A DNA stretch of 64,000 bases from a virus. Positions 24,875-36,760 of this stretch are shown here, in pieces. The notes below the pieces were generated by a model. That model saw only the letters and a list, made by a program, of their open reading frames with translations. It did not search any database and was not told where the DNA came from. The stretch is from positions 1 to 64,000 of IMG/VR virus record IMGVR_UViG_3300032299_001001. One strand, given 5' to 3'. Positions within the stretch are counted from its first letter, which is position 1; the number at the start of each line of letters is the position of its first letter. The position numbers and the translations under genes were made by a program.

Positions 24875-25457
24875 GTTTCTCATTGAGCCAGCACCAGGAT
24901 GGGAAGGTGTAGCCTTGGCTGACCTCTTGAGCGACATCCTGCGGCAACCAGATTTTCGCTTTGATCGCGCAGCCACAGACCCCGCATTGGTTGAGCCGTG
25001 AAGCATAAGCCGTGGTCCGTGCACCGATCAGGTTGAAGAGCCATTCGGCCAACCCCTTGCACCGCCAGCACCCCTTGACCATTGTGTTCAGGGGACATGA
25101 GGCACAGAGCGCGGCCCGGCGTTCGGCTTCGGGTTGATCAACAAGTCCCCTGCCCCTAAGTGCGGAGACCGCGGCTTGGATGAAACGCTTAACGTCCTCC
25201 ATCGTGAAGTGGGTCTTGAGTGCGTAGTCACCCTCGATGACGTGGCTGCAACTCTCACTGCCGATCGGAAGCTGGGCACAGACAAAGTCTTGGATGTCGG
25301 CCGAAGGATCACCCGCCGCAAGACTATTGGACTTACGATGGGTCGCCACCTTCTTGACCAGTTCGCGCAAGGTCGAAGCGGCAAACTCGAAGCCCGTCTC
25401 CGGTTGAACATAACGCCAACCGCCGGGCGGGGTCACTCTGGTATCGGTTACTATCAT
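24837..25457 (-). CDS. Cysteine-rich zinc-binding-like protein
   Basis: 206 residues. The C-terminal half has RRAALCASCPLN, KGCWRCKGLAEW and NQCGVCGCAIKAK, three paired-cysteine units that probably bind zinc. The N-terminal half has a GWRYVQPETGFEF strand motif and FAASTLRELVKKVATHR, seen in small phage proteins. The end (LPTGIEPVSQP) is coded by the antisense of the tRNA. Start overlaps the stop of the giant gene (ATGA), so it is the last gene of the virion operon. Confidence 0.65.
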   Translation of the reverse strand: MIVTDTRVTPPGGWRYVQPETGFEFAASTLRELVKKVATHRKSNSLAAGDPSADIQDFVCAQLPIGSESCSHVIEGDYALKTHFTMEDVKRFIQAAVSALRGRGLVDQPEAERRAALCASCPLNTMVKGCWRCKGLAEWLFNLIGARTTAYASRLNQCGVCGCAIKAKIWLPQDVAQEVSQGYTFPSWCWLNEKPLPTGIEPVSQP

Positions 25458-28400
25458 CGATCGGCAAGGATTTCGCGGGGCACGGCCGAGCGGCGGGCTT
25501 GGTTGTAGGCGGAGACGCGGTCGTTTTTACCGCGGGACCGAACCAAGTCTATGCTCTGCTTGCTCGCGTCGTAGGGTTTGTATATTCCGGTGGTCACCAT
25601 TTTGATGGTGTCGCCGCCGAGACCTCCGTCACGGAGGATCGCTTTGGCCCGCTGCACAGACACCCCGAGACGGATCGCGGCGAGGTAGTCCCTGCGAATT
25701 GAGTCGATCAGGCTGCGCCGGGCGGCGTTGGACCGAGCATAGCCGTCGATCACGTCGCCGGCCGAGCGGGTGCCTTGGGCGGTGAACTCGCGGTTGAAGA
25801 GGGCCGAGGCATCGCGCATCTCGCGCATGAAGCGGGAAGATTTGAACTGGAGTGCCTGCTGCGCGTCGACCGAGGAGACACGCTGGCCGAGTGCGACACT
25901 GGAAAGCTCGTTGATGAGGTTGTAGGAACGTCCGGTCTCGCTCTCGATACCGAAGGCGGCTTTACCGATACGCTCGGCGCTGTTCACGGTGCCGGGGACG
26001 AAAGGATCGTAGAAGATCTTGCGGGCTACATTGAGACCGATGTTCGCTCCGGTGTCCTGCGGGTTGTAGACCTGACGGCCGGCCGCATCACGGTTCCGCA
26101 TCACGTCCATGATCGCTCCGGCGAAGATTTGCTCGCTGGTAAAGGGATCAATGGCTTGGCGCACCATGTCCATCGTGCCCTTGAGTAAGATCTCGTCTGC
26201 ACTGCCGGGACTGCGTATTGAACGCATGAATGCGGTCAAAGGCTTTTTGAAATACTCGTAGGGGTCCAAGAAGCTGACATCGAGAAAGTCGATCTCGCCG
26301 TTTGCTTTGCGGAAGAGGACAAGCTGACTGTTCTTCTGCCAGTCGGGCAGGAAGCGGCGGAGGTCTTCTTCGTCTTCTCCGGAAATGCCCGCCATCGCCA
26401 TAGCGGCGGAGCCGACGGCAAACGGGAGGAAGGCGGCAATAGTCATGCCGCGGACCCGCTTCCAGCCGATTGCTTCGAGTTCTTTGTTGCCCGTGGCTCG
26501 GCCTTCTGTGATCTCCTGGCGGGCCAGCTTTTGCAGATTGTAAGTGGTGCGGATGACTTCGCTCGTGAAGGTCACGAACGGGGCAACGAAGGGGAACTTC
26601 TTGAGATCCTGCACAATGGCCGGGGCCAGTGAGTAGGTCCAGTGGATGTCCCGGGCGATGACTGCGGCTTTCTCCTTGATCTTGTTGTCGTCCCAGTCAG
26701 GAAAGGCTCTCCGGTATTTATCCTGCTCGGCCTCGTAGATCATCACTTTGAACCAGTCGTCACCGGCCGAGTAGGTCTTGACCGCGAAGTCGGCCACCCG
26801 CTTGAAGGGATCTCCGACTTTATTCCAAACGAAGTCCCCGAAGTCAGGGCTCCCGGCGCGGCGGCTGGCCGTGAGGAGATCTTCAAGGAGTCCGGTGGTG
26901 ATCGACTCGCCGACGATACCGCGGCGGATATAGTCGTCGATTTTCACCCGCCACTCGGCGCGGCTCATGTTGCGATATTTCCCGAAGGTGCTGGCCAGCA
27001 CAGTGTCGGTAGAGTTGGCGAACCGTCGCTTAAAGTCGCCGCTGGTAATATCGTCCAACCCCAAGTTCCCGCCTGCGATTAGTGGCATGTAGTTACCGAA
27101 GAAGTTCCGGACCTGGGACGCCACCGATCCGACCGTCTTGGTCGCCATCGAGATGCCGGTCAGCTTCATCAAAGCACGCAGCCAAGCGTAGTGCTCCTCG
27201 GTCGAGCCAACCGGGAACATCTTGAAGAGCCCCTCGGCCAGATCCGGATGCACATACATCCCACCAAGAGGTCTCAGTGAAGGATTCTTCTCGGTTGAAA
27301 TACGGACGTAGCCGGGCGGGTGACGGGTATCGTCGGGGTTGTTCTCACGACTCCAAAGCCAGCCCTCTTGGATACCGAGGTCCCGCAGTTCCTTGAGGAA
27401 GTTATCGTTGGCGATGACGCTGGAGAGCTTCATTACCGTCTTGGCATAGTTGACGCTCGGATCTTCGTAGCGACCCCAAAGGGCTTGGATCTCCGGCGCG
27501 ATGTTGCCGCGCTGGTTGAACATGCTGAGATTCTTCTGCCCGGGGATGCGGCCGGAGAGCACCTCGATCGTCGGGGCCTCTGCGCCGATCGCGAGATAGC
27601 CTTCGAGGAGGTTCTCGACCTCGTCGTCGATCACTGAATCGTTGGCGAGTGCTTCGGCGTCGATACGGGAAAGTGTGCGGCCTTCGTCGGCAGCATCAGC
27701 GATCAGGTCTTGGGCTTTCGCTTTAGCCAAGCTGTTGCGGATATACTTACGGGCCGCGTCCATGACCTTGGCATCTTTTCGCACACGGTCAGTCCACTGC
27801 GGATCATCGAAGATCGCATAGCTACGGTTAAGGTAGGTGCCGAGCGCCTCATCAACTGTGATCGCCAAGTCGCCATTGACCAAACCCTCGTTAGGCAACT
27901 GCCGTGAAAGCGACTCGATGTGTGAGGACATCTCGCGGATCGTCGCAGCCAGTTCTTCCGGCAACTGGGCCAGGGCTTGCGTCTGTTTGTTCTGCTTAAA
28001 GTTGCGGCGGTTGTCGCGGATGTATTGGTCGCGCTTCTTGGCGGCTTGATTGGTCAACCCGCGAGCCCGCAAATCTTCAATTTCGCCGATCTGCTGCTCG
28101 GTGAGCGGGTTGTCCAAGTTACCGAGCGCCGTGTTGATCGTCTCCAGGGGCGGTGTCTCACCTTTGTAGAAATTTTTAATCTGCCGCTCCAACACCCGGG
28201 AGAGGTCTTGGATCTTCGACACATCGACTTTGATCGCCATCCGGCTTGAGCGGTAGAGATCGCCGGCCCGCTTATCGAGAAGCTCGTCGACGGCAAACAT
28301 ACCACCGCGGCTGATTGTGCCTCCCGTCGGCGTGCGGCGGGTCACCGGACGCCAGACTCGCCCGCGGGCTCGGGATTCGTTCGGTTGGTCCACCGCGCCA

Positions 28401-31400
28401 CTAGCTGCGTTCGACTGTATGGAAATTTGAACGTCGAAGGGGACCACGACTTTCTTTTTCCCGATCTTGACGGTCTTTACGTTTCCTGGAACGACATCCC
28501 AAACACGTTGAACCTCACCATTACGAACGCGCACCCAGGATCCATCGTCCTGTTTCGTGAACTTTAACTCATCGCGGAAGTAGCTGTTGATTTCGGGGAT
28601 CGTTGAATCTCTTCCCTTAATGTAGGGTTGCGAGGTGACGATTCGTGGGAAGGGCTCCCCAAGATCGACAAGTCCCTCAAGGCGAATGTCGATGTTGAAA
28701 AGTTTTTTGTGGGCATTGAGATTCGTGAGGTAGTCAAAAACATTGATCGACTGACCGACCACCCCGCTCCCGGTCACATCCGGATTGGTGTATTTGATGA
28801 CACGGTTGGTCGGCTTGTCCGAGTGGACTTGGTGCTCGGAACCGTCGCCGATCTTCTTACGGCCATTAATGACCGTGTTCTCAAAACTCTCAGGATCAAG
28901 GATGAGCCCTTGCTCTTCGAGGACGTTGATGAGTTCCTCGAACGCAGCCGCGCCTTGGGCACGACGGCGCTGTTCTAATCGTTGATCGGCTTGCCCGCCA
29001 GTGTCGGCACGAAACCGGAAGCTCTCGCCTGCGCCGAGATCTCGGCCTCGGTTGGCGGATTCTTGGAGGCGTAGTAAAGCCCTTCCGATGTTCCCTTCAG
29101 GGCTTCCCGTTCGCGGTCGTCCTCGAAGGTTTCCTTCGGCATCTTGGTAGATGAGATTCGGGCTTTCACCGACGGCGCGGCTTTCGTTGAGGTCTTCATT
29201 TGGTAGAGTCAGTCCTGCTTCGGCTGCGAGTTCGGAAAGCCGGGTAGCTCGAACGCTGTCGGGCCGTCCAGTGTCGCGTCCCGCCAACCGGCTTCTTGCA
29301 ATAGCCGATCCCACTGTTCGAGCGTAAGCGGCTCGCCCGGCTTCACGGGAATCTTCGTTGCCGAGGAAGTTGCCGGTTCCTTTGTAATATTTTGTTTCAT
29401 AGTTATTACTTGAGACTAACTCTCTGACGGGCAAAAAGAGCGAGCCGTTCTTATCAAAAATTAAGACACGAGTCCCTCCGTTTTGTTCAATCAAAGTCCG
29501 GAATTGGATCCCGGCTGTCTCTAAAATACCACGGGATTGGTCTGCCGTCTGATTTGGGATAAAGACATCATAAAGTCTAGAAGTGCCTTCTGAGTCTCTC
29601 AGGAATGGAATTACTTGCTTCTGGTTTCTCAGTGCCCCCTTGAGCGCGGCCATTACCTCTACGTCCTCATACGTCAGTCCCGGAGCATAGTGCTCGGTTA
29701 CCGTCGTGGGCTCCGCGCCGTCTGCCCAATCTCCGATAGCGTCACTGACTCGGCTTTGATCTAGCCCGAAAACCGTATGAATCCTACTGGCAAACGCCCT
29801 GAGTTGCTCTTGCTGCGTTCCAGTCAACGCCGCCCGGGCCTGTGCAAATGTCAGATTCTCCCGTTCATTAGGGGAGACAAACTCCATCGCCACCGCCCGA
29901 CTCTCCGTCACAGTGTCCGCAGCCAAGGCACCCCGCCAATCCATGAACTCCTCGGGGAGAAGGGCCACCTTCTGCGTGGCAAAAGGACGCTCGGAAGCAG
30001 GAACCTTGATCCGTGTTCCGTCAGCCGCGTAGTTGTGAGCCCCATAATTGACCCAGGAATTCTGCCCCCGGGTCTCGGTGGTCAGCGCCCTCTGGGCCAG
30101 CGGGGTGAACATCTGGCTGTGCTTGATCCAGGCGTTCTCCTCGCCGCGGGCTCCGAACTGGTAGTCCTCGGCTGCGTGACCGAAGAGATCGTGGATCGCA
30201 CGCAGCTTGTCATTCATCGTCAGCCCGTCGGCATCGGGCTGGTTGAGGAGCGGGTGCGGTTCACCGCCCGTGAAAAACCACAAGTGTTTGTTATCCCGGA
30301 CATCGCGCACCATCTCCCGGGAATTGGCGTAGGGTTGCCCCTCGGTTGTCCACGGCTCGAAGGTGACTCCCATCGTATTGATGGCATAGTCCCACTGCTG
30401 CTGGATCTCGAAGCCCAGTTGCCGGTAGGCGTCCTGGGTCTCCCGACCTTCATCGAGGACCGGGAGTGCGTCATAAGCCGCAGCGATGCTGCGAGCCCGT
30501 TGTTCGTCGACTGGGGCGTAGTGCCCGCGGACTACTTCGCCGAGCCCGTAACGGGCATTGTAGGCACTGACTCCTTCTTGGACGAAGGGGTTTGGCTCGG
30601 CGTTGGGCCGAACTGTTTGCCTTTGAACTTGGTCGCCTCCACTTGCGGATCCCATCCCTGGGGTGGTCGCTTGTAGGGCAGGTTGGTTTCTTCTGTCATT
30701 GGTTGCTCCTTGGTTAGACAAAGCCTCGCGGCTTTCGTTAGAAATTGCTCTCGATTCTTGGGGGGTCTGGATGGTGACCGGCTCTACAAAATCCCGAAGA
30801 TCAGGGATTTCCCACCACCTGACTTGCCGCTGCGGGATAAAGGCGGCGTCCCGCATCTGCGGTGTCAGATCACCCGCCCGCATCCCCGTGGGGAAGATGT
30901 GCACTGGAACCGGGACGGTTCCGTAAACTTCCCGCACGGCATCGATTCTGGACCGACCTTCATGGTCTTTAATTTTCCAGACACCAGCCGTGTCATCCCA
31001 AGTTGCACTGAGGAACGGAGGACCGAGCTTCTCGCCGCGGCTGAGTGCGCCAACAACAAAATCTTTAGTCTCGGTATCGGAAACACCGCCAGGAACGAGA
31101 CGGCGGAACTCGTCCGGTGTCATGTATTTCACGAACCCGAAGTAATTGATGTCAATTTGGTTCGGAACCTGACCGATCCCTTCACGCGAATCAAAAATGT
31201 TTTCGATAGGTGAAGGACTAACCGCCCGACTCATCGTCACCGGATCAGCCAGCGTATCGACATCGGCGTCCGCTTCCTCGACCGTCGCCTCTGCACCCCG
31301 TTCCATGTTCCGTGCAGCCATGAACTCTTGCAGCAAGGCTTCACGTTCCGCGGTCGTGCCGGTCAATCCCCGGGCGATGATCTGGTCTTCAATAAAATTG

Positions 31401-34400
31401 GTTGCTTGGTCGAGGGCGGCGAGATCCTGGGCCAAGGGGTTCGCTCCGATCGGAGGTTTGGCATAGCCCTCGGTCGTGCCTTCGAGAGCACCGAAGGTCG
31501 CGGCCCACGCATCTTGGAAAGCGTTGGCCAGCGGGCTCGTCTCCGCGGTCTTCTTGCCAGAGTTGAGATCGACGATGTCGCCCCAAGCCTCGGCCACGGG
31601 TCCGGACAGCGAGGTCTTCTTGCCTTTGGTCTTGGCTTTACCGAGCCCGAGTTGCAGGGCGAGCTTGAGAAATTCCGGACTCTCCATGAGACCGCGTGCG
31701 GTCTCCTCGGCATTGACCAGATAGGCAAAGCGGCGATCGGCATCGGCTCCGACCACGTTCGGGTTGGAGAGGTCATCGACCTGACGGCTCAACTGCGCCA
31801 GTGTTGTGGGGTTATTACCCGCGGGGACTTCGAGACCGTTGGTCCGGGCGACAGCCTTGAGCATTCGCACACGGAAGGCTTCGATTCCTTTGATCGCGGC
31901 CTTCTCGACGGTGTTGAGTTTTTCCAGTCTGGCGAACTTTGTTTTGGAGAACACATGGGCGATCTCGTGCAACATGGTCAGCCCGATGTCATCGGCCTCA
32001 TGCCAGTTATCGAGGTTGAGCACGACCGAGTAGCGGCCGACTGGCGAAGTCGCGTTCTCGTCGACTCCGAGCACACCGGCCCAAGAGGTCCGCGTCTGTC
32101 CGGTCACAAGATCGAACGCCCGTGCCCGGGCTTCTTTGCCGGCTTGTTTGCGGGTGCGCCCCGACTCACCGCCGAAAGCATACGTCTCCACGCCACCCGG
32201 AGTGGTCACCTCGAAGACACCCTCACCTTCCTCGCCTTGAACTTCCTGCACCCGAGCCCGCACTTCTTCACCGCGCAAAGGCTGGGTCGCGAAGTTGCGG
32301 CGGAAGATACCGACCTGCATCGCGATGTCATCAATGTTGAGACCGAACCGCTGACCCTGGCTCAAGACGACCTTGGCAATCATCCGCATGAACGCCGGTC
32401 GGTCGCCATCTTGCGCCATGAACTCAAGCGCGGCCTTCGGACCTTCGAAGATCCGGCTACGCACGGCCTCTTGGGCATTGCGGCGGATCGCATCGATCCG
32501 CTCACGGTTGGCCATGTAACTGGAAAATTCCTCTTGGTATCCGGCGACGAGTTCTTCAACTGATCGACCCATCAGGTCGGCCATGTTCGCCTCGGTCGCG
32601 GCGACAACGCGGCGTCCCTTGGTCGCGGCGAGAGCGTCGAGGGTGGTCGAGACTGCTTGGTAGATCTTCTCGACGACTGCCTCAGAGAGGCCGGCGACTA
32701 GACTGCGGTCGCCGATGAAGGAGCCGACGAAGGCTCGCCTCGCGGTGCTGGCGTTCCGTTGGTCAGGAGTTCCTCCCAGGCCAAGTCCTCCACCAGATCC
32801 AGCGGGTCCAGCCGGAACAGTTCCGGTTTGGCCATCATCAGTTCGGCCCACACGGTTACGTCCCCGTTGAGTGCCCGCTCGATTACGTCCTCGCCCACGG
32901 CTTTCTGTAGGCCCTCCGGCAGCGACCGGTTGCGCTCCAGTAGTCCGCCCACGAAGATCGTTAGCATTTGCGGGTTGTCCCGAAAGTATTTCTGAACCTT
33001 GTTGGGTTCCTTGGTTGATTTGGTCATAGGTTTTATTCCCTTGGAGATACTCTAGCAGTTCTTCGACACGTTGCTGGTCGCTTTCGCTCAATTCTTCTCC
33101 GCGGAGATGGTCTTTAAGAAGGTCGTCATCCTCTTCACTCAGGCGAGAACGGCGCTCCCGAGCATCCATCGCGGCATCGCTGGTCCGCTCGGCAAACCTC
33201 TCAGCCGGAGTCTGTTGGGGCCGCGCATCTCCGGTCGTCCCCGCGGCGAGATCGGCTTCTGCCGCCCGCTGGTTACGTCCGGTCCGGACCGCCGATTTCT
33301 TGGCGCTCTGCGCCTTGGTCATCGCCGTCTTGATCGGGCTGAAATCTCCGTAGCTCTGCCAACGCTTCACGATCGGCTCGACCGCGGCCGATGCCTGTGC
33401 TGCGGTTTGCCCCGAGGCCACGAGTTCCTCGGTGATCTGACGCGCTGCTTCCTGCACATCGCGACCGGTATCGGCTCCCGTCTCGTTCTCCTGATTGCTC
33501 TCGAAGATATCGAGCATCCGGCTGTTGAACTTTTTGAAGAGCGCGAGATCGCGCACCGGAGGCACACCCTTCTTATCGCGGCCGGCCACCTGTTCGATGA
33601 TCGAGGCATCGGCTTCGTCGGAAGCCATCGCTTTGGCCTCGGGATCGAGGTCGCTGCGACGATCAATGAACCGTGCAGCCCGTGCCCGTGCATCGCCGAC
33701 AAAGAACTGGTCGGCCTCGTCGAGGCTTTCCAGCTTTGACTGCACCGAACCAACGGTTTTGCCCGCGCTCTCTTTCTGTGTCTGCTTGCCCTTGCGAGCC
33801 CGCTCACTGCGAAGTAAACGCTCGGGTGAGTTGAAATAGATATTGTCAAAACCTCCCGGGCCGGTGTTCTCCCCGTTCACCGAAAAGTCATAGGCGGCAT
33901 CTCCGCGGCGATAGGTGTTGCCGTTGTAGACGACCTTAGTCACGACGTTGGCGGTCTGACCGTTCTTCATCGTGCGCGGCTCCACTTGCACACCTTCGGG
34001 AAGATTCTGAAGCTGGTCATCCGGCACCGGGACATCGAGTCCGAGGTTCATCTGACGCACCGTGGTGAAGAGGTTCTTCATCCACTTGCCGAAGTTTACG
34101 ACTTCTTTGACCCCGGGCTCACCTTCCTTGTCGAAGTAGCGCACCTCGCCCGGCACCTTGTTCGTCTTGCCGGGGTTGGCGTAGAGACCATCGTCGAAGA
34201 ACGCCTCTTGCGGCTGACCTTCTTGGTAAGGTGTCCCAAAGACGCGCTCGGCTTTCGCCTTGGTCGGCTTCGGTCCGAGCACCGAATTAACGGCAACATC
34301 GACCGGTGACTGCTTCGGCGTGGGCTGCTTGAACATCCCGAGCCGGTTGTATTGCTGCGGGGTAAAGACGAGCTTCTCTTGGTTGCCCTCGGCATCCGGC

Positions 34401-36721
34401 TCGGTCACCACGACCACGTTGCCATTCGGACGGCGGGCTTCGAAAGTCGCACCGAACGAAAGCGAGTCATCGGCTTTCTCATCCGAGAGGTAGACCGTCA
34501 CCTTGTCCTTGGGTTGCAGGCTCTCGACAAATTGGCGCGACTGATCCGGAGGACGGTTGACCGTTTGCTGTGCGACTTTGACCTGCTCGACTTTGGTATC
34601 GGCGATCGTCTGCTTGCTCTTCTGAATCTCCGCATCGAGTGCCGTCGCTTCGGCCGGCGCTTTGCTTAAAGTGTCTTCGACCTGAACGAGCTTTTGATAC
34701 AGCGGCTCGGTCAGCGTGCTCTTGGCTTCCGGTGCCAGGTCCCGGCGCTCGATCTCCCCGATCGAACTCTCCAGCGTGGTCCGCGCATCTCGCAGCAAGG
34801 TCACCGCATTGCGGTCCAGTGTCTCAGCGGTCTCCGCTGCTTGGTCCACGATCGAGACTTCAGGGCGGGCCAGTGCCGCCTTGGAAATTTCCTCCGCGCC
34901 CATCGTTGCGAGATCGGGCATCGGTGTCGGTTGTTCGACCGGCGGAGTCTGCACTGCCGGGATCGAAGTAGCAGTTAGACGAGTCAGCGCAGGGGCCGCA
35001 ACGATCTCGACTTCGCTCTCCGCAGGAACTTCGACCTCCGTGCCATCATTGGCCCGCAGCAAAAACCTTGCACCGTCTTGGGCCAGTGACCCCTCGTAGC
35101 CATTGAACCGCACATTGGAACCAACCGCCTGACCAGCCGGCGTCATGTCCGGACCATCATCAAGCACCGATTCCGTGGCCGGGGTGCGCGGTTTAGGTTT
35201 CTGGACCGGGGTGCGTTTTACCTGCGTCGATCCGACCTCATCGTCATCGAAGAACCCAAGGGCTTTCTGTGCCAGAGCTTTTTCCGATCGGGTCGGGAGA
35301 TTGAGATACTCGACACCATTAAGCAGCGAGAACACTTCACCCTGCGGAGTTGAAAACCTCGGCAACCCAGAAAACTTTTGTGGATCAGGGTTAAAGATCG
35401 CGACCTTGCCTTCGTCATTACGGCGAAAATCAAAACCCCCAACAACCTTCGGCTCCGACCAGTTACTCTCAAGGACTGTGAGTGGTTGGCCCGACGCCGG
35501 ATCCTCCGGGATGTTGACTAGTGTCTGCTGTGTAGTCCGGCGCAACTTCTCCGCCGTCTGCGGAGCCAGTGCTTCGATGACACTGCCAGCGCCACCCAAA
35601 GCACCGCCGACTGTGGCCCCCGCCAGAGCGGCAATCCGCCGCTCCCGTTCCGCTTCCGGCGTTCCGACCACTTCCTCGATCGTCCGGTTCGGATCGGCCG
35701 CACCGAGAGCGGCTTGCTCCAATCCGGTCTGCACATACTCGGTGCCACCTTCCAAGGTTGCCGCAGCAGGAAGACCAACACCAACGCTTCGGGCCACCCG
35801 GCCAGGAAATGAAATCCCTGTGGCTGTATCGACACCCTCTGCTGCCGCCCGTCCCGTCTTCGTGAAAGGCTTGAGAAATTTCCCCGCGATAAAGACCTCA
35901 CCCAAAGTATCGAGTGCAGCCCCAGGAACAGCAAACGCTGCCGCTGCCAAGGCATCCCCTTCACCCGTCTCTTGGGCGATCTGACCGAAGCTCCCGCCCG
36001 CGATCTGGCCAAAGTTGGCGGCATAAGCACCTCCGATAGCTCCTCGGGTAGCTGCTTTATTGATGAGTTCAGCCCCCTCACCGAGAAGCATTCTTTTCGC
36101 GACCATCCCGGCCACTTCTTTTTCCGCGACATCTTTGGCCAACCCCGCAGTCACCCGCTTGCCAATCTCATTGGCCACAATTTTCTTCGCCACCGTCTTC
36201 GCGGCAAAACCACCGACGCCACCACCGACGGCCGAGACAAGTAACTGCGGGATCTGCTCACCAAGTAACCCAGCCGCATAAGTCGCCGCATCCCCCAGCC
36301 CGCCAATCTCCTCGAAGGGATCCTGCACAGTCGCTTGGTTCTGCGCGGCCTCCTCCATCTTACGGACGTAATTATCCAGCCCGAACTCCTCGATTCCCTC
36401 CACCCCGAGCGCCTGCCCCATGAGCCCGACCAACCCGTAGCCGAGACCTTGGGTCTGGTCGACACCGCGATCTAAACCAGTCGAGAACTCTTCGCGGAGG
36501 GTGCGTTCGGGCGCGGGATTCAGGATCGTCCCGCGTAGAGCAACCCTCGAAGCAAACTCCTCTAAGGGAACAACCACGTCTTCCTCTTCACTTGAAGAAG
36601 CACTGGGGGGTGGAGTGGTTCCGGGCGGACGCGCCGAAAGGCGGTAGAAATCTTCTACTGGGATTATTACATCCTCGGAAGTCTCAGTTGCCGCATCATC
36701 CTCAAGGTCATACCAAGCCAT
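25454..36721 (-). CDS. Giant polyvalent protein (3755 aa), probable ejected virion protein
   Basis: A short acidic N-terminus with a repeated EDVIIPVEDF/EDVVVPLEEF motif leads to a glycine-rich hydrophobic region (about 90-390). Then come linkers and a zincin-like protease segment (TMLHEIAHVF near 1580). A ParB-like segment follows (MTPDEFRRLVP, DHEGRSRIDAVR near 1855-1945), then a domain with IHDLFGHAAEDYQFGARGE near 2140, a kinase-like segment (2590-2765) and a long helical C-terminal part resembling LPD38-type regions. This matches the polyvalent-protein concept: large multi-domain proteins delivered with phage DNA. It lies last after other ejection genes. ESRA-type motifs mark several boundaries, and three small genes overlap linker regions. 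Confidence 0.8.
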   Translation of the reverse strand: MAWYDLEDDAATETSEDVIIPVEDFYRLSARPPGTTPPPSASSSEEEDVVVPLEEFASRVALRGTILNPAPERTLREEFSTGLDRGVDQTQGLGYGLVGLMGQALGVEGIEEFGLDNYVRKMEEAAQNQATVQDPFEEIGGLGDAATYAAGLLGEQIPQLLVSAVGGGVGGFAAKTVAKKIVANEIGKRVTAGLAKDVAEKEVAGMVAKRMLLGEGAELINKAATRGAIGGAYAANFGQIAGGSFGQIAQETGEGDALAAAAFAVPGAALDTLGEVFIAGKFLKPFTKTGRAAAEGVDTATGISFPGRVARSVGVGLPAAATLEGGTEYVQTGLEQAALGAADPNRTIEEVVGTPEAERERRIAALAGATVGGALGGAGSVIEALAPQTAEKLRRTTQQTLVNIPEDPASGQPLTVLESNWSEPKVVGGFDFRRNDEGKVAIFNPDPQKFSGLPRFSTPQGEVFSLLNGVEYLNLPTRSEKALAQKALGFFDDDEVGSTQVKRTPVQKPKPRTPATESVLDDGPDMTPAGQAVGSNVRFNGYEGSLAQDGARFLLRANDGTEVEVPAESEVEIVAAPALTRLTATSIPAVQTPPVEQPTPMPDLATMGAEEISKAALARPEVSIVDQAAETAETLDRNAVTLLRDARTTLESSIGEIERRDLAPEAKSTLTEPLYQKLVQVEDTLSKAPAEATALDAEIQKSKQTIADTKVEQVKVAQQTVNRPPDQSRQFVESLQPKDKVTVYLSDEKADDSLSFGATFEARRPNGNVVVVTEPDAEGNQEKLVFTPQQYNRLGMFKQPTPKQSPVDVAVNSVLGPKPTKAKAERVFGTPYQEGQPQEAFFDDGLYANPGKTNKVPGEVRYFDKEGEPGVKEVVNFGKWMKNLFTTVRQMNLGLDVPVPDDQLQNLPEGVQVEPRTMKNGQTANVVTKVVYNGNTYRRGDAAYDFSVNGENTGPGGFDNIYFNSPERLLRSERARKGKQTQKESAGKTVGSVQSKLESLDEADQFFVGDARARAARFIDRRSDLDPEAKAMASDEADASIIEQVAGRDKKGVPPVRDLALFKKFNSRMLDIFESNQENETGADTGRDVQEAARQITEELVASGQTAAQASAAVEPIVKRWQSYGDFSPIKTAMTKAQSAKKSAVRTGRNQRAAEADLAAGTTGDARPQQTPAERFAERTSDAAMDARERRSRLSEEDDDLLKDHLRGEELSESDQQRVEELLEYLQGNKTYDQINQGTQQGSEILSGQPANANDLRGRTTGAQPVAAGGPTESRGRGRNRAGTQRGRNRVGRTDDGQTGTVPAGPAGSGGGLGLGGTPDQRNASTARRAFVGSFIGDRSLVAGLSEAVVEKIYQAVSTTLDALAATKGRRVVAATEANMADLMGRSVEELVAGYQEEFSSYMANRERIDAIRRNAQEAVRSRIFEGPKAALEFMAQDGDRPAFMRMIAKVVLSQGQRFGLNIDDIAMQVGIFRRNFATQPLRGEEVRARVQEVQGEEGEGVFEVTTPGGVETYAFGGESGRTRKQAGKEARARAFDLVTGQTRTSWAGVLGVDENATSPVGRYSVVLNLDNWHEADDIGLTMLHEIAHVFSKTKFARLEKLNTVEKAAIKGIEAFRVRMLKAVARTNGLEVPAGNNPTTLAQLSRQVDDLSNPNVVGADADRRFAYLVNAEETARGLMESPEFLKLALQLGLGKAKTKGKKTSLSGPVAEAWGDIVDLNSGKKTAETSPLANAFQDAWAATFGALEGTTEGYAKPPIGANPLAQDLAALDQATNFIEDQIIARGLTGTTAEREALLQEFMAARNMERGAEATVEEADADVDTLADPVTMSRAVSPSPIENIFDSREGIGQVPNQIDINYFGFVKYMTPDEFRRLVPGGVSDTETKDFVVGALSRGEKLGPPFLSATWDDTAGVWKIKDHEGRSRIDAVREVYGTVPVPVHIFPTGMRAGDLTPQMRDAAFIPQRQVRWWEIPDLRDFVEPVTIQTPQESRAISNESREALSNQGATNDRRNQPALQATTPGMGSASGGDQVQRQTVRPNAEPNPFVQEGVSAYNARYGLGEVVRGHYAPVDEQRARSIAAAYDALPVLDEGRETQDAYRQLGFEIQQQWDYAINTMGVTFEPWTTEGQPYANSREMVRDVRDNKHLWFFTGGEPHPLLNQPDADGLTMNDKLRAIHDLFGHAAEDYQFGARGEENAWIKHSQMFTPLAQRALTTETRGQNSWVNYGAHNYAADGTRIKVPASERPFATQKVALLPEEFMDWRGALAADTVTESRAVAMEFVSPNERENLTFAQARAALTGTQQEQLRAFASRIHTVFGLDQSRVSDAIGDWADGAEPTTVTEHYAPGLTYEDVEVMAALKGALRNQKQVIPFLRDSEGTSRLYDVFIPNQTADQSRGILETAGIQFRTLIEQNGGTRVLIFDKNGSLFLPVRELVSSNNYETKYYKGTGNFLGNEDSREAGRAAYARTVGSAIARSRLAGRDTGRPDSVRATRLSELAAEAGLTLPNEDLNESRAVGESPNLIYQDAEGNLRGRPRTGSPEGNIGRALLRLQESANRGRDLGAGESFRFRADTGGQADQRLEQRRRAQGAAAFEELINVLEEQGLILDPESFENTVINGRKKIGDGSEHQVHSDKPTNRVIKYTNPDVTGSGVVGQSINVFDYLTNLNAHKKLFNIDIRLEGLVDLGEPFPRIVTSQPYIKGRDSTIPEINSYFRDELKFTKQDDGSWVRVRNGEVQRVWDVVPGNVKTVKIGKKKVVVPFDVQISIQSNAASGAVDQPNESRARGRVWRPVTRRTPTGGTISRGGMFAVDELLDKRAGDLYRSSRMAIKVDVSKIQDLSRVLERQIKNFYKGETPPLETINTALGNLDNPLTEQQIGEIEDLRARGLTNQAAKKRDQYIRDNRRNFKQNKQTQALAQLPEELAATIREMSSHIESLSRQLPNEGLVNGDLAITVDEALGTYLNRSYAIFDDPQWTDRVRKDAKVMDAARKYIRNSLAKAKAQDLIADAADEGRTLSRIDAEALANDSVIDDEVENLLEGYLAIGAEAPTIEVLSGRIPGQKNLSMFNQRGNIAPEIQALWGRYEDPSVNYAKTVMKLSSVIANDNFLKELRDLGIQEGWLWSRENNPDDTRHPPGYVRISTEKNPSLRPLGGMYVHPDLAEGLFKMFPVGSTEEHYAWLRALMKLTGISMATKTVGSVASQVRNFFGNYMPLIAGGNLGLDDITSGDFKRRFANSTDTVLASTFGKYRNMSRAEWRVKIDDYIRRGIVGESITTGLLEDLLTASRRAGSPDFGDFVWNKVGDPFKRVADFAVKTYSAGDDWFKVMIYEAEQDKYRRAFPDWDDNKIKEKAAVIARDIHWTYSLAPAIVQDLKKFPFVAPFVTFTSEVIRTTYNLQKLARQEITEGRATGNKELEAIGWKRVRGMTIAAFLPFAVGSAAMAMAGISGEDEEDLRRFLPDWQKNSQLVLFRKANGEIDFLDVSFLDPYEYFKKPLTAFMRSIRSPGSADEILLKGTMDMVRQAIDPFTSEQIFAGAIMDVMRNRDAAGRQVYNPQDTGANIGLNVARKIFYDPFVPGTVNSAERIGKAAFGIESETGRSYNLINELSSVALGQRVSSVDAQQALQFKSSRFMREMRDASALFNREFTAQGTRSAGDVIDGYARSNAARRSLIDSIRRDYLAAIRLGVSVQRAKAILRDGGLGGDTIKMVTTGIYKPYDASKQSIDLVRSRGKNDRVSAYNQARRSAVPREILADR
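28975..29199 (-). CDS. Nested small gene in +1 frame of giant gene (second of pair)
   Basis: 74 residues from ATG 29199, eight bases after the stop of the nested gene before it, in the same frame. Basic N-terminus, then an acidic helix (KETFEDDREREALKGTSEGL) and YYASKNPPTEAEISAQARAS with VPTLAGKPIND. Third codon positions are mostly G or C, as in real genes here, while the giant protein over the same DNA is arginine/glycine/alanine-rich linker. No motif recognised. Real but unproven. Confidence 0.5.
   Translation of the reverse strand: MKTSTKAAPSVKARISSTKMPKETFEDDREREALKGTSEGLYYASKNPPTEAEISAQARASGFVPTLAGKPIND
29209..29400 (-). CDS. Nested small gene in +1 frame of giant gene (first of pair)
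   Basis: 63 residues from an ATG one base after GTAATAAC (29402-29409). The sequence looks like a normal compact protein: KPGEPLTLEQWDRLLQEAGW then DATLDGPTAFELPGFPN. The giant frame here reads a repetitive arginine-alanine linker (residues about 2441-2504). The junction motif, the start position and the codon bias all favour translation. Function unknown. Confidence 0.6.
   Translation of the reverse strand: MKQNITKEPATSSATKIPVKPGEPLTLEQWDRLLQEAGWRDATLDGPTAFELPGFPNSQPKQD
29402..29409 (-). promoter_or_regulatory. GTAATAAC junction motif inside giant gene
   Basis: Exact minus-strand copy, read by the giant frame as Ser-Asn-Asn, immediately followed by T and the ATG of the nested gene. Every other minus-strand copy found stands between two genes. 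Its presence here is independent support for the nested pair. Confidence 0.55.
32698..33027 (-). CDS. Nested 109-aa gene in +1 frame of giant gene
   Basis: 109 residues with ordinary protein composition: NKVQKYFRDNPQMLTIFVGG, LLERNRSLPEGLQKAVGEDV, VWAELMMAKPELFRLDPLDL. It has hydrophobic helices and G/C-ending codons almost throughout, until a serine/proline-rich tail. AAGGGAATAAAACCT precedes the ATG. The giant protein over the same bases (residues 1232-1341) is glutamine-, glycine- and arginine-rich low-complexity sequence, including TESRGRGRN. This strongly suggests that the nested frame is the older or better-conserved one. Function unknown. Confidence 0.65.
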   Translation of the reverse strand: MTKSTKEPNKVQKYFRDNPQMLTIFVGGLLERNRSLPEGLQKAVGEDVIERALNGDVTVWAELMMAKPELFRLDPLDLVEDLAWEELLTNGTPAPRGEPSSAPSSATAV

Positions 36722-36760
36722 TGGTAAAGGTAGCTGTTAAGAGGTTATTACGCAACGCGA

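Follow-up and report, generated by a model that had tools for sequence, protein, structure and literature searches.

The 64,000-nucleotide window analyzed here comes from a viral contig of 66,433 bp. Located after the structural and tail-gene region is a giant open reading frame (ORF), in which a small ORF (ORF1) is fully nested in the +1 frame. The giant ORF and the features within it are:

25454..36721, minus strand: giant host ORF, 3,755 aa, of polyvalent or internal virion type, with a C-terminal region that matches phrog_22602
33028..33047, minus strand: ORF1 upstream region, TCTCCAAGGGAATAAAACCT, with a Shine-Dalgarno-like AAGGGA about 10 nt before the ATG
32698..33027, minus strand: ORF1, putative nested gene of 109 codons in the +1 frame of the giant ORF, with its ATG at 33027 and a TAG ending at 32698
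32759..33010, minus strand: giant segment across ORF1, predicted to be disordered (residues 114-197 of a 431-aa model, pLDDT about 26-30)
31322..32089, minus strand: giant HExxH domain downstream of the linker, with LTMLHEIAHVFSK at 31981-31943; zincin-like metallopeptidase candidate
30532..30699, minus strand: ORF3, weak candidate nested +1 ORF of 55 codons with AAGGAG upstream, also present in relative L005, with few substitutions
29209..29400, minus strand: ORF2a, candidate second nested +1 ORF of 63 codons, its ATG directly after AGTAATAAC, found only in the window and relative L004
28975..29199, minus strand: ORF2b, candidate third nested +1 ORF of 74 codons, also in L004 and L005, dN/dS 0.48 (0.27-0.86)

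A 109-residue ORF had been predicted at exactly the coordinates of ORF1 with the strand, which is minus, left unstated; the predicted +1 relation to the giant ORF (36721..25454) was confirmed.

The C-terminal third of the giant protein matches the virion structural family phrog_22602 (E 1e-32), and its C-terminal region is 24-27% identical to late structural or ADP-ribosyltransferase-annotated proteins of Pseudoalteromonas phage vB_PunP_Y3, Cellulophaga phages phi13:2, phi18:3, and phi19:3, and Pelagibacter phage HTVC027P. The N-terminal half had no match in the phage collection, and no Pfam domain scored above the cut-off in the giant. The giants of relatives are uninterrupted and 2,884-3,913 aa long. 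HExxH is conserved in all 16 giants compared; because Pfam matched nothing, the name zincin-like peptidase is drawn from this motif together with the published account of polyvalent proteins (PMC5512222). Residues from about 1800 to 2780 of the giant are hypervariable, with whole modules replaced, while the C-terminal module of the same relatives is 78-99% identical. In the window giant, an ESRA motif recurs where modules meet (near residues 1989, 2273, 2513, and 2782), and these repeats are possibly processing or recombination joints. We rejected ESRA as a set of cleavage sites: there are four copies against 0.7 expected in the window giant, a pattern that is not consistent across relatives.

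Across ORF1, the giant frame consists to 69% of G, S, R, Q, N, T, and P, in agreement with the low-complexity linker described in the original prediction. The modelled giant stretch has helices on both sides of the disordered segment, and as modelled the giant across ORF1 is a disordered, basic Gly/Arg/Gln/Ser linker between folded parts. The ORF1 translation is MTKSTKEPNKVQKYFRDNPQMLTIFVGGLLERNRSLPEGLQKAVGEDVIERALNGDVTVWAELMMAKPELFRLDPLDLVEDLAWEELLTNGTPAPRGEPSSAPSSATAV; it includes the stretch VWAELMMAKPELF and has the motif GDxTVWAxLxxxxPELFR...ExDLAxxxLL. An AlphaFold2 model of ORF1 built with 14 homologs has seven helices and a mean pLDDT of 80.5, with values >90 across much of residues 20-90. 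The small protein had been expected to consist of hydrophobic helices; the helices are indeed predicted, but they are amphipathic rather than notably hydrophobic, and the product is acidic, with a net charge of -5 in the window and of -4 to -21 in the 16 genomes compared, all 16 acidic. The final ~20 ORF1 residues, poorly ordered in the ORF1 model, overlie the next giant helix, and the models of both frames therefore imply that the two products take turns, one being structured where the other is disordered. The window protein matched no Pfam or PHROG family at E<=1, the best family match among its relatives being RelB_like_antitoxin (0.025). Against PDB sequences, the best E was 0.6; in Foldseek, the best E values were 5.2 and 1.3, and all matches in the Foldseek and VIA-align searches were at noise level. 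No match from the homolog, domain, and fold searches indicates a function.

The nested frame has the codon usage of an ordinary gene of this genome. Scored with a codon model derived from 15 other window genes, it reaches 0.22 bits/codon, compared with 0.28 +/- 0.12 for 327-nt pieces of real genes and -0.49 +/- 0.12 (maximum -0.23) for the +1 frames of real genes. Its GC content at codon positions 1/2/3 is gene-like at 0.66/0.42/0.73, with similar values in relatives, while nearly all other long +1 ORFs of the window giant have high GC2 (0.55-0.77). The normal-looking codons originally noticed in the small frame are thus genome-typical; those of the giant frame over the overlap are not. Judged by synonymous choice, 15 of the 16 genomes (all except L045) have better codon usage in the nested frame than in the giant frame across the overlap; the nested values are close to the giant's own average. 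Openness of the +1 frame alone is unremarkable because about 52% of synonymous resamplings of the window giant leave it open (8-53% across genomes). What goes beyond chance in ORF1 is its composition, conservation, and substitution pattern, not its openness.

Searches of IMG/VR yielded 18 viral contigs besides the window that contain this part of the giant, and in all 18 a +1 ORF of 91-137 codons is nested at the same border. ORF1 identity to the window protein is 79% in close relatives and 22-38% in deeper ones; the deepest homologs (22-30% identical) were recovered by six-frame HMM search at E 1e-11 to 1e-21, with profile E values of 3.7e-21 for L050, 3e-19 for L048, 1.5e-13 for L045, and 5e-12 for L047. 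Among 32 whole phage records searched, each of the 11 clade records contained one nested copy and none of the 21 outgroups did. Stops or poor conservation in the nested frame, which would have spoken against the small gene, were looked for and were absent in every relative found. The layout has a negligible probability of being an assembly or sequencing artefact in which the real giant protein continues through the nested frame, masked by two indels: the nested frame does code better than the giant frame across 327 nt, but stops close it on both sides, and the artefact is refuted because the same arrangement occurs in 18 separately assembled, divergent contigs.

A free-standing counterpart of the 109-residue product, for which a search had been suggested with the original prediction, did not turn up among phages, IMG/VR, 84,980 prokaryote genomes, or the 32 whole phage records. 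One candidate, HTVC027P gp86 (HMM E 0.04), was rejected as a chance match, which lies mostly upstream of the gp86 start; gp86 also belongs to a different small-protein family. Weak ORF1 matches in L053, L057, L061, L062, and L079 (E 3-20) had no convincing common sequence or position on inspection, and tblastn matches in a microvirus and a Gordonia phage (E 0.4 and 9) are chance.

The codon-position rates reverse within the overlap. In six pairs of genomes, differences at giant codon positions 1/2/3 number 85/61/47 in the overlap versus 121/89/322 in 150-codon flanks (chi2 74, p 8e-17), the third position being the fastest in the flanks (322/532 differences) and the slowest in the overlap (47/193). 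With the most divergent pair removed, the counts are 44/26/20 versus 43/30/180 (p 6e-15). A blind scan of the whole giant for slowed third positions returned the ORF1 site in 4 of 4 pairs (window/L005, L006/L011, L008/L012, and L009/L010). The giant synonymous rate is 0.08 in the overlap core versus 0.25-0.61 in seven flanking control windows, and giant-frame dN/dS is 1.16 (0.83-1.63) in the core versus 0.13-0.39 in flanking windows, so giant amino acids there are close to neutral. By comparison, dN/dS in the nested frame is 0.47 (CI 0.34-0.64), a value that by itself is weak and not decisive because flanking control windows without a gene give 0.58-1.35. Change that is nonsynonymous in the giant and synonymous in the nested frame rises to 0.20 in the overlap versus 0.06-0.18 in controls. 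The drop of the giant synonymous rate and this rise are the decisive signals; the pattern is frame-specific and indicates that the nested ORF1 protein is under purifying selection. The proposal that the small frame is the constrained one is accordingly borne out by codon usage, by reversed codon-position rates, and by a giant dN/dS near 1 only in the overlap, with conservation in every relative found and the predicted fold as additional support.

The giant frame is also maintained. When the nested protein was held fixed and its synonymous codons were drawn from each genome's own usage, 3-6 giant-frame stops were expected and the frame stayed open in 0-3% of draws per genome, whereas it is actually open in all 16 genomes. 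We infer that the giant frame is kept open by selection while its amino acids drift almost freely. The locus thus has the selective pattern of an overlapping gene pair, two open frames on common DNA that are both maintained by selection. That ORF1 is instead a chance ORF, open merely through the GC-rich, repetitive giant linker, agrees with the half of the synonymous resamplings that stay open but is highly improbable: it is refuted by the substitution pattern, and other findings stand against it as well, namely that the protein is conserved at identities of 22-79%, codon-position rates are reversed, codon usage is like that of a gene, and a fold is predicted. Four lines that we consider independent, namely coding signal, conservation, substitution pattern, and fold, favor ORF1 as a gene, and we conclude that it is almost certainly a genuine protein-coding gene.

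The ribosome site of the AAGGGA type that had been noted before the ATG is present; CCAAGGGAATAAAACCT-ATG is a modest Shine-Dalgarno match with a duplex dG of -4.6. Relatives L006, L007, L008, L011, and L012 have AGGAG upstream (dG -7.4), and L010 has AAAGGA. No Shine-Dalgarno sequence is found at the nested ATG of the deep relatives L045, L047, L050, and L051, and many ordinary genes of the window phage likewise have none. The nested start is ATG in all genomes but L009, which has GTG or a later ATG. ORF1 would most likely be translated by internal initiation at its ATG from the giant's own mRNA. The ORF1 frame could otherwise be read only within a frameshift product, the N-terminal part of the giant joined to ORF1, with no start of its own, as the four deep relatives lacking a Shine-Dalgarno sequence might suggest. 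Such an origin is very unlikely because a stop precedes the nested ATG by one codon in the L006-type genomes, where only 3 nt would remain for slippage; the almost universal ATG and the lack of an apparent common slippery sequence also argue against it.

The original prediction had gone further, proposing that an older gene was read through to give the giant its linker. Codon usage and composition favor this order, in which the giant linker was added over an older small gene, and we lean toward it as somewhat probable; it is not proven, and the missing free homolog counts against it. The reverse order, in which ORF1 is an old de novo gene born in an existing giant linker by classic overprinting, its codon usage normalized with age, is plausible at somewhat under an even chance. 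It fits the fact that no free-standing homolog of ORF1 turned up anywhere searched and that ORF1 is confined to this giant module, whereas the giant's N- and C-terminal modules are more widespread; in addition, de novo genes arise most often in the +1 frame, and old ones show typical codon usage (PMC8227390). On the other hand, ORF1 is acidic, unlike the usual +1 de novo protein, which is hydrophobic and has few acidic residues, and the giant segment, being basic and low in hydrophobic residues, resembles what de novo +2 frames typically encode (PMC8227390). In the outgroup giants L057, L059, L063, and L068, the N- and C-terminal modules are joined in one chain without the ORF1-bearing block, which counts against the small-gene-first order. 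The correlation of linker composition with the shadow of an ordinary gene (0.67-0.77) is no better than with ordinary proteins and was therefore not used as evidence.

Further nested genes may occupy the same giant, whose other linkers contain additional +1 ORFs with a gene-like signal (ORF2a, ORF2b, and perhaps ORF3). In L006, L008, L010, L011, L012, L048, and L049, the second slot contains a different, mutually homologous ORF of 74-76 codons, a family with a nested dN/dS of 0.63 (0.43-0.89). In view of the nested-ratio range of the control windows, ORF2b and this second-slot family are candidates rather than established genes. The presence of unrelated ORFs in different phages suggests that the second slot is an exchangeable site. 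A broader generalization, that giant linkers are systematic hosts of +1 small genes (one certain, with one to three exchangeable candidate slots) and that the giant arose as small genes were read out of frame and their shadow translations came to serve as spacers joining domains, is speculative and rather unlikely.

The motif AGTAATAAC, extended as rGTAATAACnCCrCA, occurs 12 times in the window against 0.09 expected, at 467, 3752, 8895, 18611, 19638, and 22542 on the plus strand and at 29402, 40901, 45151, 50153, 52843, and 58862 on the minus strand. Most copies precede a gene start by 6-30 nt on the coding strand, in both arms; a shorter match at 36744 (minus strand) lies just before the giant gene, and the motif is also found in several relatives. 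It may be a promoter-like or initiation motif of the phage.

Overall, ORF1 is very probably a real gene that lies, in the +1 frame, wholly within a tailed-phage gene for a giant internal virion protein of the polyvalent type. It is always found with this giant module and nowhere else, just before the conserved HExxH domain. The main rival to a role as a partner of the giant is that ORF1 is an unrelated, independent accessory protein, for example for host takeover or anti-defense, housed there for compactness. Nested genes of unrelated function are common in viruses and the second slot contains differing ORFs in different phages, and we give this possibility not far short of an even chance, against which stands the strict pairing of one ORF1 with one giant module throughout the genomes found. 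Our preferred specific reading, tentative and at less than even odds, with function inferred from position and product type, is that of a cis-encoded partner: the ORF1 product would be a small acidic helical protein, supplied by the giant's own transcript, that acts on the giant as a chaperone, assembly factor, or inhibitor. Its likely client would be the HExxH domain just downstream, whose activity might be blocked up to the time of packaging or ejection; processing by zincin-like peptidases is a theme described for polyvalent phage proteins (PMC5512222). The opposite charges of ORF1 and the linker may follow from the frame relation and are therefore poor evidence of binding.

The literature searched appears to hold no description of a nested gene that has the dominant frame within the gene for a giant virion-type phage protein, is maintained throughout a deep clade, and may be one of several slots. 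To our knowledge, tailed phages have few fully nested genes longer than 100 codons apart from those in lysis cassettes, and gene callers often overlook such genes. This hidden gene is recognizable from sequence alone because the constrained frame switches, which suggests that the linkers of other giant phage proteins are worth scanning for hidden genes. Out-of-frame reading of a small gene may be a route by which giant multidomain proteins acquire spacers.

Overlapping genes are themselves a known kind, the nearest cases being Rz1 in Rz (PMC6139136) and the hepadnavirus spacer (PMC8227390). Like ORF1, lambda Rz1 is a fully embedded, shifted-frame gene of tailed phages, and embedded two-component spanin genes are often missed by gene callers (PMC6139136). 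Rz1, however, is a short outer-membrane lipoprotein encoded inside a lysis gene, whereas ORF1 has no homology to it, starts MTKSTKEPNKVQKYF, has no cysteine and therefore no lipobox, and lies in a virion-type giant gene; ORF1 is not an embedded spanin. The giant, which adjoins tail and structural genes, resembles the polyvalent and giant internal virion proteins of the P1 DdrB/DarB type (PMC5512222) in its very large multidomain architecture, HExxH candidate peptidase, and disordered linkers; it differs in having no Pfam match above the cut-off, and a word search of the main text of PMC5512222 found no mention of nested genes. The DdrB-like or ADP-ribosyltransferase-annotated genes of Pseudoalteromonas phage vB_PunP_Y3 (Poorviridae) are homologous to the giant C-terminal module (27% identity, E 4e-74), but there the counterpart is split into two genes and the genome has no ORF1 homolog. 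In the hepadnavirus polymerase spacer/preS overlap, as at ORF1, a small gene lies over the weakly constrained spacer of a multidomain protein, and the spacer frame is modelled as having been born within the small gene and having fused the flanking domains (PMC8227390). ORF1 differs in belonging to a tailed dsDNA phage, in the far larger host protein, in its full nesting, and in its soluble-type helical product, with no homology implied, and together with the giant it provides a testable dsDNA-phage case for linker birth of the type proposed for hepadnaviruses.
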